From the NCBI RefSeq assembly GCF_000383975.1, contig NZ_KB913017.1, positions 1,469,105-1,533,104 of the forward strand: DNA of 64,000 nucleotides, given 5' to 3'. This document shows, one piece after another, positions 50,424 to 56,707 of the stretch (position 1 is its first letter; each line of letters starts with the position of its first letter). The translations under genes and the position numbers were made by a program. Source of the stretch: Natronorubrum tibetense GA33. GTDB lineage: Archaea > Halobacteriota > Halobacteria > Halobacteriales > Natrialbaceae. The notes below the pieces were generated by a model. That model saw only the letters and a program-made list of their open reading frames with translations. It did not search any database and had not been told where the DNA came from.

Positions 50424-50846
50424 TTACGACCGGTCGAGTGCCGTGACGCCCCGGTATCGCTGGTCGTCGATCGACTCGATCGAGAACCCGAGCGACTCGT
50501 AAAACGGACGGACGCCGTCGTCGAAGCGGACCGTCAGCCGACCCTCGCGCTCGAGCGCCCGTTCCATCAGCGCGCGGCCGATGCCCTTTCCTCGGTGACG
50601 GCGGCGGACGCCGATCGCCGAGACGTGCGCGCCGTAGACCTCCTCGCGGGACTCGAGGACGACCGTGCCGAGAACTCGTTCGCTGGCGTCGTTCGCTTCG
50701 GTTCCGCCGCGATGATCGCCGGCGACGAGCACGTCCGCGTTCTCGATCCGGATTTCGACGTCGCCCGGCTCGAGCATGGCCGCGTCGAGGATGCGTCTCA
50801 CGTCGAGTGCGTCGTCGGCGGTGGCGGTGCGGACGTGGCCGTCCAT
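50424..50846 (-). CDS. GNAT-family N-acetyltransferase
   Basis: A 140-residue enzyme with the GNAT core: VRTATADDALDVRRILDAAM, VLGTVVLES, AHVSAIGVRRRHRGKGIGRALMERALE (the acetyl-CoA loop R-R-H-R-G-K-G-I-G) and VRPFYESLGFSI. Substrate unknown, perhaps a protein N-terminus or a small amine. It begins 3 nt after the peroxiredoxin-like gene ends, so they form an operon. Confidence 0.9.
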   Translation of the reverse strand: MDGHVRTATADDALDVRRILDAAMLEPGDVEIRIENADVLVAGDHRGGTEANDASERVLGTVVLESREEVYGAHVSAIGVRRRHRGKGIGRALMERALEREGRLTVRFDDGVRPFYESLGFSIESIDDQRYRGVTALDRS

Positions 50847-50849
50847 TCG

Positions 50850-51386
50850 TTACGTTTGTCGGTCGATGGTGGCCAACAACTCGTCGATGTCGGGCCGATC
50901 GAGATTCGTCCGCCCGCGGTAGGCAGTGGCGATATCGATCGCTCCGTCGTCGTCGATGTCGAAGATGATCGCGACCGGCATTCGGCCGACGACGTCGAAC
51001 TGTTCGCCGAGTGCCCCGAGGCGAATCGGTTGGTCGAAGGTGTCGCCCGCGGTCGCCTCCGGATCGGCACAGAGCGGAAACGGGAGATCGTAGCGCGCTT
51101 GCCACTGCTCGACGCGCTCACGGGGTTCGGGGACCACTGAGACGACCTGACAACCACGGTCGCGGAACTCGTCGTAACGGTCGGCGACGGCTCGGATCTG
51201 TCGGCGACACTGCCCGGCGTGGTGGTCGCGGTGGAGCAACAGGAGGATGGACTCGTGAGCCGTATCGGCCTCTTCGGTCGTCGTGGGGTCGGCCGGTTCG
51301 ACCGGCACCGCTAACTCCGCCAGCGTGAGCGGATCCGGTCCCGGGCCGACGTTCTCGAGTGTTAGTTCGGCGGCGTCACCAGTCAT
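50850..51386 (-). CDS. Peroxiredoxin-like redoxin
   Basis: A 178-residue thioredoxin-fold protein of the AhpC/TSA superfamily starting MTGDAAELTLENVGPGPDPLTL at 51386. The region SILLLLHRDHHAGQCRRQIRAVADRYDEFRDRGCQVVSVVPEPRERVEQW resembles the active helix, and PFPLCADPEATAGDTF the following strand. The usual PxxxTxxC is replaced by DHHAGQC, so the single resolving-type arrangement is uncertain. It may detoxify peroxides or act as a redox partner. It precedes an acetyltransferase gene. Confidence 0.8.
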   Translation of the reverse strand: MTGDAAELTLENVGPGPDPLTLAELAVPVEPADPTTTEEADTAHESILLLLHRDHHAGQCRRQIRAVADRYDEFRDRGCQVVSVVPEPRERVEQWQARYDLPFPLCADPEATAGDTFDQPIRLGALGEQFDVVGRMPVAIIFDIDDDGAIDIATAYRGRTNLDRPDIDELLATIDRQT

Positions 51387-51426: not shown

Positions 51427-51699
51427 TCAGCGGTTCCTGTCGCCAGTTTCGCCCGACCCGCCCTTGATCAACCGCAACACCGTTACGTGGTCGCTCTCGA
51501 CGGGCTGATCCTCGGGAACGGGCCGACCGTCGACGAGGACGCTCACCTCGTGGGGACTGAGACCGATCTCGCGCAGTAGCTCCTGGTACGTCGGTGTCGC
51601 TCCGTCGGCTTCCGTCCCGTCGTTCGGTTCGGCTTCTGACACCGCCTCGAGATCGATCTCGTGTGTCTCCTCGCCCTTGACATCGACGGTGACGCGCAT
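51427..51699 (-). CDS. samp2: SAMP2-type ubiquitin-like modifier with C-terminal extension
   Basis: A 90-residue beta-grasp protein. The second half is near-identical in pattern to haloarchaeal SAMP2 (LSPHEVSVLVDGRPVPEDQP, HVTVLRLIKGG). SAMP2 is attached to lysines via its last glycine and also donates sulfur in tRNA thiolation. Two deviations are visible: an acidic insert of about 15 residues (SEAEPNDGTEADGA) after the second strand, and nine residues, SGETGDRNR, after the diglycine (residues 80-81). The diglycine is therefore internal and would have to be exposed by a protease. Confidence 0.85.
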   Translation of the reverse strand: MRVTVDVKGEETHEIDLEAVSEAEPNDGTEADGATPTYQELLREIGLSPHEVSVLVDGRPVPEDQPVESDHVTVLRLIKGGSGETGDRNR

Positions 51700-51822: not shown

Positions 51823-52905
51823 TCAGTCGGCCGTCGGTCCGCCGGGACCGCTCTCGCCGTGGGATTCCTGTTCGCGGACCTGCCGACGGTGGGCGTACAG
51901 CCCGAATCCGAGCGCGCCGAGACCGAGCAGGAAGACGAGTAGGTTGAGCAGGCCGCCGAGAACGGGAAGCTGTGCGAGCACTGCGCCGGCGACCAGTCCG
52001 ACGACGAGCGCGAGCCAGCGGTTGTCCACGCCGACCAGCGAGAGGAGCCACGCGGCGACGGCGTACCGGCCGTAGATGATCCCGATCCAGATGAGAAGCG
52101 CGAATCCGAACGCGCCGACGACGGCGAACGGAATGCCGATGACCGTGATCGCCGCCGCGACCAGGAGGACGGGAATCCCGACGAGGAGTGCGAACCCGGT
52201 CAGTCCGGCGCGCAGGGGATCGGTCGCGACCCGATCCGCGATCCCGTCGGAGAATCGGGGAAACAGCGCGAGCAGCGCGGCGCCGAGCAGCAGGTTCAAC
52301 GCGAGGACGTACGCCGAGAATAGCCACGACGCGATCGGAACGGCCGTTCCCGTCAGGTCGATCCCGATCGAGGAGTCCTCCGTGATCTCGCCGGCGACGG
52401 CGTCGGTGTTCCCCTCGAGACTGCCGCCATAGCGCAGGTCGCCCGCGATCGACGCGTCGTCGCCGAGCTGGATCGTTTCGGCCCCGATCTTCGCGTCTCC
52501 CTCGAGCGTCCCGTCGATCAGGACGCTGCCGGCGCCGACCGAGAGGTCGCCGCCGATAGTCGCTTCGTCGGTTATCTCGAGGCTGCCGGCGGCCGCTTCG
52601 ACGTCGCCGTCGACGCTGCCGTCGATTTGAACGCTGCCGGCGGCCGCTTCGACGTCGCCGCCGACCGCGCCGTCGATCTGGACGCTGCCGGCGACCGCGC
52701 TGACGTCGCCCGTGACGGTGCCCTCGATGATCACGGTTCCCGCAAATGCCTCGAGTTCGTCGACCGTCTCTCCCGCTTCGACGACGACCGTGCCGCCGCT
52801 CCGGCTCTCCGACTGGGCCGCGACCGCCACCGGAACCGTTCCGACGACGACGAGGACGAGTACGGCGAGGACGAGTACTGTCCGGACGCGACTGGTAGAT
52901 GTCAT
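51823..52905 (-). CDS. Bactofilin-like repeat protein with membrane domain
   Basis: A 360-residue protein. An N-terminal signal (VLVLAVLVLVVVGTVPVAVAAQS) is followed by about 12 short beta-strand repeats (residues 45-175) of the pattern G-S-V-x-I-D-G-S-V-x-G-D, characteristic of polymer-forming bactofilin domains. About five transmembrane helices come next (residues 190-330). The repeat domain should face outside. It may build a surface or envelope structure; this is inference. Duplicated repeats AAAGSVQIDG(A/S)V.GDVEAAAGS are nearly identical. Confidence 0.8.
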   Translation of the reverse strand: MTSTSRVRTVLVLAVLVLVVVGTVPVAVAAQSESRSGGTVVVEAGETVDELEAFAGTVIIEGTVTGDVSAVAGSVQIDGAVGGDVEAAAGSVQIDGSVDGDVEAAAGSLEITDEATIGGDLSVGAGSVLIDGTLEGDAKIGAETIQLGDDASIAGDLRYGGSLEGNTDAVAGEITEDSSIGIDLTGTAVPIASWLFSAYVLALNLLLGAALLALFPRFSDGIADRVATDPLRAGLTGFALLVGIPVLLVAAAITVIGIPFAVVGAFGFALLIWIGIIYGRYAVAAWLLSLVGVDNRWLALVVGLVAGAVLAQLPVLGGLLNLLVFLLGLGALGFGLYAHRRQVREQESHGESGPGGPTAD

Positions 52906-53617: not shown

Positions 53618-56600
53618 ATGAGCGAGGCCGACGCCGAGGCGGCGGAGCCGACACCGGGCAAGACCGAAGTCTGGATCGAGAAGTACCGGCCGGAACGGCT
53701 CGACGAGATCAAGGGCCACGAGAACATCGTCCCGCGACTACAGAACTACGTCGAGCAGGACGAACTGCCGCACCTCATGTTTGCGGGTCCGGCGGGTACG
53801 GGGAAGTGCGTCACCGGCGAGACACCGGTGTTGACAAATGAAGGGGTCACCCCTATCTCGTCCGTTGTAGGCGATGTCGAGGGATTCGACGAGCCCGACG
53901 GGAACCTCGAGATCCTGACGTTCGATAGTGACGGCTCGTTCGAGTACGTCGCTCCTTCACACGTCTTCGCCAAGGACGCGACGGATCTCGTTTCGATCGA
54001 GACTCGCGACGGAAACGAATTTACGGTCACGCCGGAACACAAACTCCTCGTAGCGGACAAGTCGGGCCTCGAATGGCGGGAGGCCGGATTGCTCTCCGGT
54101 GAGGAACGGATCGTTCGACCGCTGGAAGCGCCCGTTATCGACGACGATAATGCCCCGTCACTCGACTGGGTCTCGTCGATGGACGGAGCGCGAACGTTCG
54201 TCACCGTCTCGGAAGCGTTCGCTGAACGCCACGAAATTCCGGCCGAAGCGAACTACGTCGGCCAGAAGAAGACGGTAATCGGCTGTCTTCGTCGCGGATA
54301 TACGGTCGACGAGATTGCCGACGAGTACGATATCGCTCGCGATACTGCGGCGAATTACGCGCGTACCGTCTCGATCGACCTCGAGAAGCCGTCGACGACC
54401 TGCTCACTCGCGTACCTCCGATCGCTCGACGTCGAGAAATCTGAACTTCAATCTCACGTGGACTCGGTCAGCTACGTGACGTCGTACAACAAGCGATCCA
54501 GCCCGATTACACCTCCCTGGGAACTCACGCCGGATCTGGCGCGGTTCGTCGGTCTCGCGATCAGTGAAGCACGGATCGAAAACGGCCGTATTAAATTCTA
54601 CAACACCGACGATTCGCTCTGCGCGTCGTTCGAGCGAATCGCCCAGCAACTGTTCGACGTCGAAACCACCTGCGGCGTACAGAAAGACGTTCCGTACGTC
54701 GAGCTCAGAACCAAGTCGCTCCACCATTTCCTCGAGTCCTGCTTCGACGTCTTCAGCGATTCGCCCTCGGCGATCGGTTCGACGCTCGTTCACGCTCGAG
54801 AAGACGTTCGAAGGGCGTTTCTACAGGCTGTCTTCGACTCGGAGGCGTATGTCGCAGATCAGGGAACGATCGAACTGACACAGAAAGACGAGTTGTTGAT
54901 TACGCTCTGTTCGTATCTGCTCGGTTCGTTCGGGATCCCGACGCGACGGAAACGAGTCGAGAAGGCAGCGACGAACGGCTCGGCGACGGTTCGAGAGTAC
55001 CATACGCTGTATATCTCAGGTGTCTCCGCACTCTCCCGCTTCGAGGAAGCGATCGGATTCACTATCGATTACAAACGTGATCGACTCGCTGATTCTACGG
55101 CGGGTACCGGGAACCCGAATTACGACACGATGCCCGCGCAGGCCGCTGTCGGCGACCTCTGTCGAACGCTCGCGCTGAAAAGGGAGCCCCTGGTGACGGA
55201 TAGCTTGAACCCCGACAATCCCGGACGGGAGTCGTATCTCGAGGACATCGATCGCGTTCTCGAAGCGGCGTCTGACCGTCTCGAGGCCGCACAACGGGTT
55301 AAACAGGACATCGAGCAGGTCCGGTCCGATATTCGATCGGTGGCTGCCGTGCCGACGGCGTGGGTCGACCAGCGAGACGCATTGGAACCGATCGAGGCAC
55401 GAAAGGCGGTCGAAGCGACGACAGGAATTCGGACGGACCGTCTACTCGAATACGCCGATGGACGTCGGTCCCCGACTGCGAGCCGCGCAGGTGAGTTGCT
55501 CGCGACGCTCGAGTCGCGCACCGAAACGCCGGATACCGCCGCTGTCCAAAAATCCCTGCGGGATGCGATCGACGACCTTGGCGTCTCGGACAATCGAATT
55601 GCGGACGGAACGGAGTTGCTCGGTACGGATGTTCGAAACCTCGTCGAGAACAACGATCACGACCTTGCGTCGCTGCCGCGGTTCGAGACCGTCGCTGATC
55701 AGATTCTCGACGTAGCCGACAAGATGTGTTCGATGGAAGTCGTCGAACAACTAGTTGCTCTCGACCGACTCTCCCGCGGCACGCTGTACTTCGACCGCGT
55801 GACGGAAATCGAACGAGTGCAGGACGAACGCCGCGTCTACGATCTTACGGTACCGGGAACGCGAAATTACGTCGCAGGCGACGTGCCAACGGTCATGCAC
55901 AACACCACTGCTGCACAGGCTATCGCCCGCGAAGTCTACGACGACGACTGGCGGGAGAACTTCCTCGAGCTAAACGCCTCCGACCAGCGCGGAATCGACG
56001 TCGTGCGCGATCGGATCAAGGACTTCGCGCGCTCGTCGTTCGGCGGCTACAACCACCGAATCATCTTCCTCGACGAGGCCGACGCGCTGACCTCTGACGC
56101 CCAGTCCGCGCTGCGCCGAACGATGGAGCAGTTCTCGAACAACACGCGCTTTATCCTCTCGTGTAACTACTCGAGTCAGATCATCGACCCGATCCAGTCT
56201 CGCTGTGCGGTCTTCCGCTTTACCGAACTCTCCGAGAAAGCGATCGAGGCGCAGGTGCGCGAGATCGCGGCGAACGAGGGCATCGAAGTGACCGACGACG
56301 GCGTCGACGCGCTTGTCTACGCAGCTGACGGCGACATGCGAAAGGCCATCAACGGCCTGCAGGCGGCCGCCGTGATGGGCGAGACCGTCGACGAGGAGAC
56401 CGTCTTCGCGATCACCTCTACCGCTCGGCCGGAGGAGGTCGAAGCGATGGTCGAACACGCCATCGACGGGGACTTCACCGCCGCTCGCGCGGCCTTAGAG
56501 GATCTCCTGATGGACCGCGGACTGGCCGGCGGCGACGTCATCGACCAGCTCCACCGTTCGGCCTGGGAGTTCGACATCCCCGAACAGGCGACGGTTCGCC

Positions 56601-56707
56601 TGCTCGAGCGCCTCGGCGAGGTCGACTACCGGATCACGGAGGGCGCAAACGAGCGGCTCCAGCTGGAGGCGATGCTGGCGTCGCTGGCGCTCGAGAACGA
56701 GTCCTGA
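53618..56707 (+). CDS. rfcS: Replication factor C small subunit, intein-containing precursor
   Basis: A 1029-residue precursor. The flanking parts join to a 330-residue clamp-loader subunit: [33 protein letters not shown] (Walker A), then after the intein [23 protein letters not shown] (Walker B), [25 protein letters not shown] (sensor 1 and arginine finger) and [14 protein letters not shown] (sensor 2). It loads PCNA onto primed DNA. The break falls directly after the Walker A lysine, at residue 63/763, so unspliced protein cannot bind ATP. Confidence 0.95.
53807..55903 (+). mobile_element. Intein in RfcS, with LAGLIDADG-type endonuclease domain
   Basis: A 699-residue intein from Cys 64 ([10 protein letters not shown], block A) to Asn 762 ([13 protein letters not shown], block G). 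Block B is [21 protein letters not shown] and the +1 residue is Thr. An endonuclease core is present, with first motif [14 protein letters not shown] (nt 54538-54579) and second motif [12 protein letters not shown] (nt 54818-54853), in both of which the catalytic acid is Glu rather than Asp. A long linker with extra helical sequence (RETESK-like region 55250-55700) follows. It is unusually long. Confidence 0.9.

Follow-up and report, generated by a model that had tools for sequence, protein, structure and literature searches.

The window that we have analyzed is a 64,000-nucleotide stretch of the genome of Natronorubrum tibetense GA33 (contig NZ_KB913017.1, positions 1,469,105 to 1,533,104), in which genes for the archaeal modifier SAMP2, a redoxin and a GNAT acetyltransferase follow each other on the same strand (Table 1). 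The SAMP2 frame starts at an ATG, ends at a TGA and codes for 90 amino acids. Its assignment is clear, with 105.5 bits against the Pfam SAMP2 family (cut-off 27), 119.2 bits against the NCBIfam SAMP2 equivalog NF041919 (cut-off 70, full model, residues 1–81 corresponding to model positions 1–66) and matches to the two solved SAMP2 structures, PDB 2l32 and 4hrs, at E~1e-18. Another small-protein model matched below its cut-off, and no match to the ubiquitin family was found. Upstream of SAMP2 a gene on the reverse strand (window positions 51823–52905) codes for a membrane protein that contains a bactofilin-like repeat domain (PF04519). Farther on, a frame of 1029 codons (53618–56707, forward strand) resembles by eye a clamp-loader ATPase of the RfcS type, apparently with an intein at its P-loop (GTGK/C...HN/TT, again by eye).

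Table 1. Features of the SAMP2 locus of N. tibetense GA33 (positions in the window).
Feature	Position	Strand	Basis
Predicted SAMP2 precursor gene	51427..51699	-	ORF of 90 codons + TGA; PF21965, NF041919; PDB 2l32/4hrs
Gly80-Gly81 codons (diglycine needed for adenylation by UbaA), followed by the predicted cleavage site	51457..51462	-	Sequence, alignment
Nine-residue C-terminal extension SGETGDRNR	51430..51456	-	Sequence, tail of sister species, first-residue statistics, low AlphaFold confidence
Variable acidic insert at about residues 19–36, separating strand 2 from helix 1	51592..51645	-	Alignment, length distribution, pLDDT
Redoxin (AhpC/TSA) gene, immediate downstream neighbor of SAMP2	50850..51386	-	PF00578
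Gene for a GNAT acetyltransferase, third of the cluster on this strand	50424..50846	-	PF13508

The conserved core of the protein is intact in the alignment and its beta-grasp fold ends with LRLIKGG (residues 75–81). As the initial annotation had read it, the frame then continues with SGETGDRNR (residues 82–90) before the stop, and the diglycine is not the last pair of the translated protein. The AlphaFold model of the precursor, a moderate one (mean pLDDT 75.9), has a beta-grasp core and a flexible tail, with a mean pLDDT of 51 over residues 81–90. Confidence is also low in the acidic insert (below 50 at residues 26–30). The same annotation considered this insert uncommon; it is present, but ordinary for the family, since SAMP2 measures 65–97 amino acids up to the GG in Natrialbaceae (median 76.5), whereas the rest of the order has a median of 65. 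A search of the 4.93 Mb genome, 99.9% complete, found no second SAMP2 and thus rules out a hidden copy free of the tail.

The sister species Natronorubrum texcoconense, sequenced in a separate assembly, has an in-register tail that is also nine residues long, SKPPIDRNR, and the same DNA downstream of the gene. The two SAMP2 cores share 211 of 243 nucleotides. Within the tail the two species agree at Ser82 and over the final four codons, while codons 83–86 all differ non-synonymously. Six of the 10 Natronorubrum genomes have a tail, i.e., the trait is polymorphic within the genus. We therefore give practically no weight to the idea that the original stop codon was lost through an error of sequencing or assembly, given also that tails recur across the order (at least 24 changes are required on the tree described below). 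That such errors may occur is suggested by one genome (G104), in which two SAMP2 copies near two contig ends differ by a small indel and carry different tails, SR and the 17-residue SLSPVWTRVASPSPRSP. These copies may be overlapping assembly ends, one of them with an error, and the long tail an assembly artefact.

We have read the 3' ends of 239 SAMP2 genes in 238 genomes of Halobacteriales. In 66 of them (N. tibetense and 65 others, from many genera and with intact cores) the frame runs past the GG, mostly by 2–3 residues. The diglycine of N. tibetense SAMP2 is indeed blocked, as first proposed, but it is far from unique in this, ca. 27% of the haloarchaeal SAMP2 genes being tailed. With relatives extended, a single SAMP2 in the genome and an error unlikely, the grounds that had been named for dismissing the extension did not materialize. 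Another reading is that the extension renders SAMP2 inactive or that the gene is decaying. It has in its favor the established mechanism, by which the E1 cannot adenylate a capped glycine; however, this is the sole SAMP2 of the genome, its core is conserved and the same holds for the cores of tailed genes in many genera, so that we consider inactivity or decay highly improbable.

The tails are not what simple read-through of a stop codon would produce. Tails of 1–3 residues make up 26 of 54 genus/tail units, and only 4 of the 173 tail-less genes would yield one of this size on losing their stop. Short tails are thus far commoner than stop loss would give, and read-through is inadequate as their sole source. 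Their first residue is also biased: serine, the commonest in the order, opens 31 of the 54 units, compared to 9% of downstream triplets. When each genus is given one vote, 11 of 22 have mostly serine and 15 of 22 serine, alanine or threonine. The codons used for this serine include AGC, AGT and TCC, all three more than one substitution away from a stop. Some tails begin with Arg, Glu or Gln. The preference for serine agrees with a selection of small residues behind the cut. The non-random first residue and short length could also be taken as a sign that the peptide itself has a role, e.g., in postponing activation or in labeling SAMP2 that has just been synthesized. Against this, the tail interior is not conserved (see codons 83–86 above) and most orthologues have no tail at all, which makes a function of this kind very unlikely.

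Besides the short tails, the 66 extended genes include those of 12 genomes in which SAMP2 is fused in frame, through its GG, to a redoxin. Eleven belong to one genus (g45, family f17) and the other one (G193) to family f5. Pfam searches with two of these proteins recovered SAMP2 and AhpC-TSA/Redoxin in one chain, and the redoxin part of the G162 fusion was 43% identical to the separate redoxin found downstream of SAMP2 in N. tibetense. In several fusions (G162, G140 and G193) there was no ATG, GTG or TTG between the GG and the redoxin core, making separate initiation unlikely in them. In two more genomes (G136 and G154) the SAMP2 frame runs, by eye, into GNAT-like acetyltransferase sequence. 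The fusions therefore join neighbors, as the order of the genes in the window is SAMP2, redoxin and GNAT on one strand.

Which components could process such proteins in N. tibetense? The genome codes for one ThiF-family E1 of the UbaA type (E=1.7e-84) and, away from SAMP2, for JAMM1, which reached 157.6 bits in a DNA-level search with the desampylase model NF041370 (cut-off 130). By eye the motif E...HxHx(7)SxxD can be followed in it (EEICGIF...HSHPRGPSRPSATD). JAMM2 is encoded as well, and both proteases have the HxH...SxxD motif. Among the other ubiquitin-like (Ubl) proteins of this genome, SAMP1 and a SAMP3-like protein end exactly at the GG. Two MoaD-like genes have tails (GG-SQK and GG-CR), one more Ubl ends at the GG and another one at CC. 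Over Natrialbaceae SAMP1 ends at the GG in 36 of 37 genes, while SAMP3 has no tail in 10 genes of the genus and a tail in 5 of 10 genes from a wider sample, with Ala or Thr as first residue. The first MoaD-like protein (M..TVYGPLRSATGEK...VQGG; L150, C1:1134247–1134504) has relatives in four other genomes (L152 to L155), and the five tails always start with serine (SQK, SRK, STDG, STDG and SAAS). The second one (L094, C3:48960–49214, on a 239 kb contig) ends in SGGCR, a short tail past the diglycine. The protein with the CC end (L097, C1:147030–147152, terminating in YPFMFCC) probably belongs to arCOG00539, a halobacterial family with CC ends to which Makarova and Koonin drew attention in 2010.

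The distribution of JAMM1 was determined with the single model NF041370 in the surveyed genomes, and the association with tails was counted in the 212 that were at least 90% complete. Tails were present in 59 of 169 genomes bearing JAMM1 and in none of the 43 lacking it, which are spread over six families. Tail counts within one genus are not independent; taking genera as units the figures were 18 of 48 with JAMM1 and 0 of 18 without (p=0.0014). The association held when two tail-rich families were excluded (p=3e-5) and within Natrialbaceae alone (p=0.037). To place this on a phylogeny we used a tree of the SAMP2 gene (67 columns, arbitrary root) constrained to the known families and genera. 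This tree, together with simulation, replaced the counting of independent pairs, for which the SAMP2-only tree had too few supported branches. A minimum of 24 tail changes (mentioned above) and 13 JAMM1 changes were needed. Letting the gain and loss of tails depend on JAMM1 gave a clearly better fit than independence (2dlnL 20.26, 2 df, p=4e-5), a value reached by 0 of 158 null simulations (maximum 10.9). Without JAMM1 the fitted rate of tail gain was at its lower bound and loss was very fast, whereas with JAMM1 gain and loss were similar, which is what one would expect of tails that have almost no effect on fitness when there is a protease to remove them. Two tails were found in genomes negative for JAMM1, which are 63% (G142) and 71% (G154) complete; the G142 tail is Gly-Gly and the protein still ends in GG. 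JAMM2 was present in each of the 113 good genomes sampled from the order, including those without JAMM1, and for this reason cannot be the correlate of the tails.

The initial annotation had raised the possibility of a processed modifier with a JAMM-type protease as partner. The intact JAMM1 gene of N. tibetense and, among the more complete genomes, the restriction of tails to those bearing JAMM1 lend support to this idea at the level of sequence comparison. It could be argued that another protease or a carboxypeptidase trims the tail, JAMM1 merely marking genomes that keep the full sampylation system. Most tails, with their 2–3 residues, are within reach of an exopeptidase, and JAMM1 does not appear to be the only correlated gene. 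In Natrialbaceae, ten genomes lacking JAMM1 have a single match to NF041918, which is SAMP1, and so appear to be without SAMP3, while nearly all of those bearing JAMM1 have at least two matches. Loss of SAMP3 and of JAMM1 may thus have gone together, and some other factor lost with them might be the actual partner. On the other hand, the natural fusions, of 179–222 residues, have a partner that looks intact and thus require an endoprotease. The universal JAMM2 cannot explain the distribution, and HvJAMM1 has exactly the activity needed: it hydrolyses both linear and isopeptide links of SAMP1-3 (PMC4048286) and cuts the SAMP1-MoaE fusion exactly after the Gly, a cut that is needed in vivo (PMC4443979). 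Altogether we regard trimming by a different enzyme as improbable.

The most likely reading, to which we would assign a probability of about 0.8, is that SAMP2 of N. tibetense is an inactive precursor matured by a JAMM1 cut after Gly81, and that tails are tolerated where JAMM1 exists. The protein would be translated with its diglycine capped, and JAMM1, the orthologue of HvJAMM1, would remove SGETGDRNR and expose Gly81 for UbaA, the enzyme that adenylates the C-terminal carboxylate of SAMP2 (PMC4048286). Mature SAMP2 would then enter the usual UbaA pathway, i.e., thiolation of the tRNA wobble uridine and protein conjugation. The cleavage, the identity of the enzyme and a working mature SAMP2 are what we infer from the patterns described. 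In haloarchaea with JAMM1 the SAMP2 stop codon could be lost or shifted without harm because the protease would re-create the GG end, and tails would therefore come and go. In some lineages SAMP2 would have become fused with the next gene. A wider extrapolation, tentative and open to considerable doubt, is that haloarchaeal JAMM1 is a required maturation protease as well as a deconjugase, on which lineages have become dependent through tails and SAMP2-redoxin fusions. Cleavage of the latter might free modifier and antioxidant enzyme together, coupling the supply of SAMP2 to redox stress.

One odd gene has thus led to a testable rule, namely that SAMP2 may bear a C-terminal tail only where JAMM1 exists. 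The archaeal desampylase gains a likely second job in precursor maturation, together with natural candidate substrates and cleavage sites, and with these precursors and fusions archaea offer a parallel to those known for ubiquitin. In annotation and proteomics, searches that take a terminal GG of SAMP2 for granted will go wrong for about one in four haloarchaeal genes. Trimming of precursors by JAMM proteases is already known for the SAMPs and CsUb of Caldiarchaeum (PMC6043591). In the open-access literature that we searched, we found nothing on natural haloarchaeal SAMP2 precursors, SAMP2-redoxin fusions or an association with JAMM1.

The closest reference is SAMP2 of Haloferax volcanii (HVO_0202; PDB 2l32 and 4hrs), which belongs to the same family and acts in the UbaA/NcsA thiolation pathway, N. 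tibetense likewise having a single UbaA-like E1. However, the Haloferax protein ends at Gly66, while that of N. tibetense has nine more residues and a longer acidic insert. In Caldiarchaeum subterraneum CsUb-pre also has a tail of nine residues, which a JAMM protease (CsRpn11) removes after the Gly-Gly, the step predicted in N. tibetense, and the first tail residue matters there too: small ones are tolerated, cleavage by CsRpn11 being faster with Gly and blocked by a bulky Glu (PMC6043591). As a true homologue of ubiquitin, from another phylum, CsUb differs from the SAMP2 described here. CsJAMM cleaves SAMP precursors of Caldiarchaeum (PMC6043591), but this was found in vitro for two proteins, and the haloarchaeal tail is polymorphic within a genus and tracks JAMM1 across the order. 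The SAMP1-MoaE linear fusion has its C-terminal Gly blocked as in the haloarchaeal tails and fusions, and the JAMM1 cut after this Gly activates it in vivo. It was engineered in Haloferax, and natural Ubl-MoaE fusions are reported from Crenarchaeota and bacteria, unlike the haloarchaeal SAMP2-redoxin ones. Finally, eukaryotic ubiquitin precursors and ubiquitin-ribosomal protein fusions likewise have a C-terminal cap or a fused protein from which a protease frees the modifier. That system involves a different protein family and different proteases; in haloarchaea the partner is a redoxin or an acetyltransferase and many orthologues are uncapped. Still, the confinement of caps and fusions to genomes bearing JAMM1, among the 212 of good quality, points to a trimming of modifier precursors in haloarchaea that would resemble the one of ubiquitin in eukaryotes.
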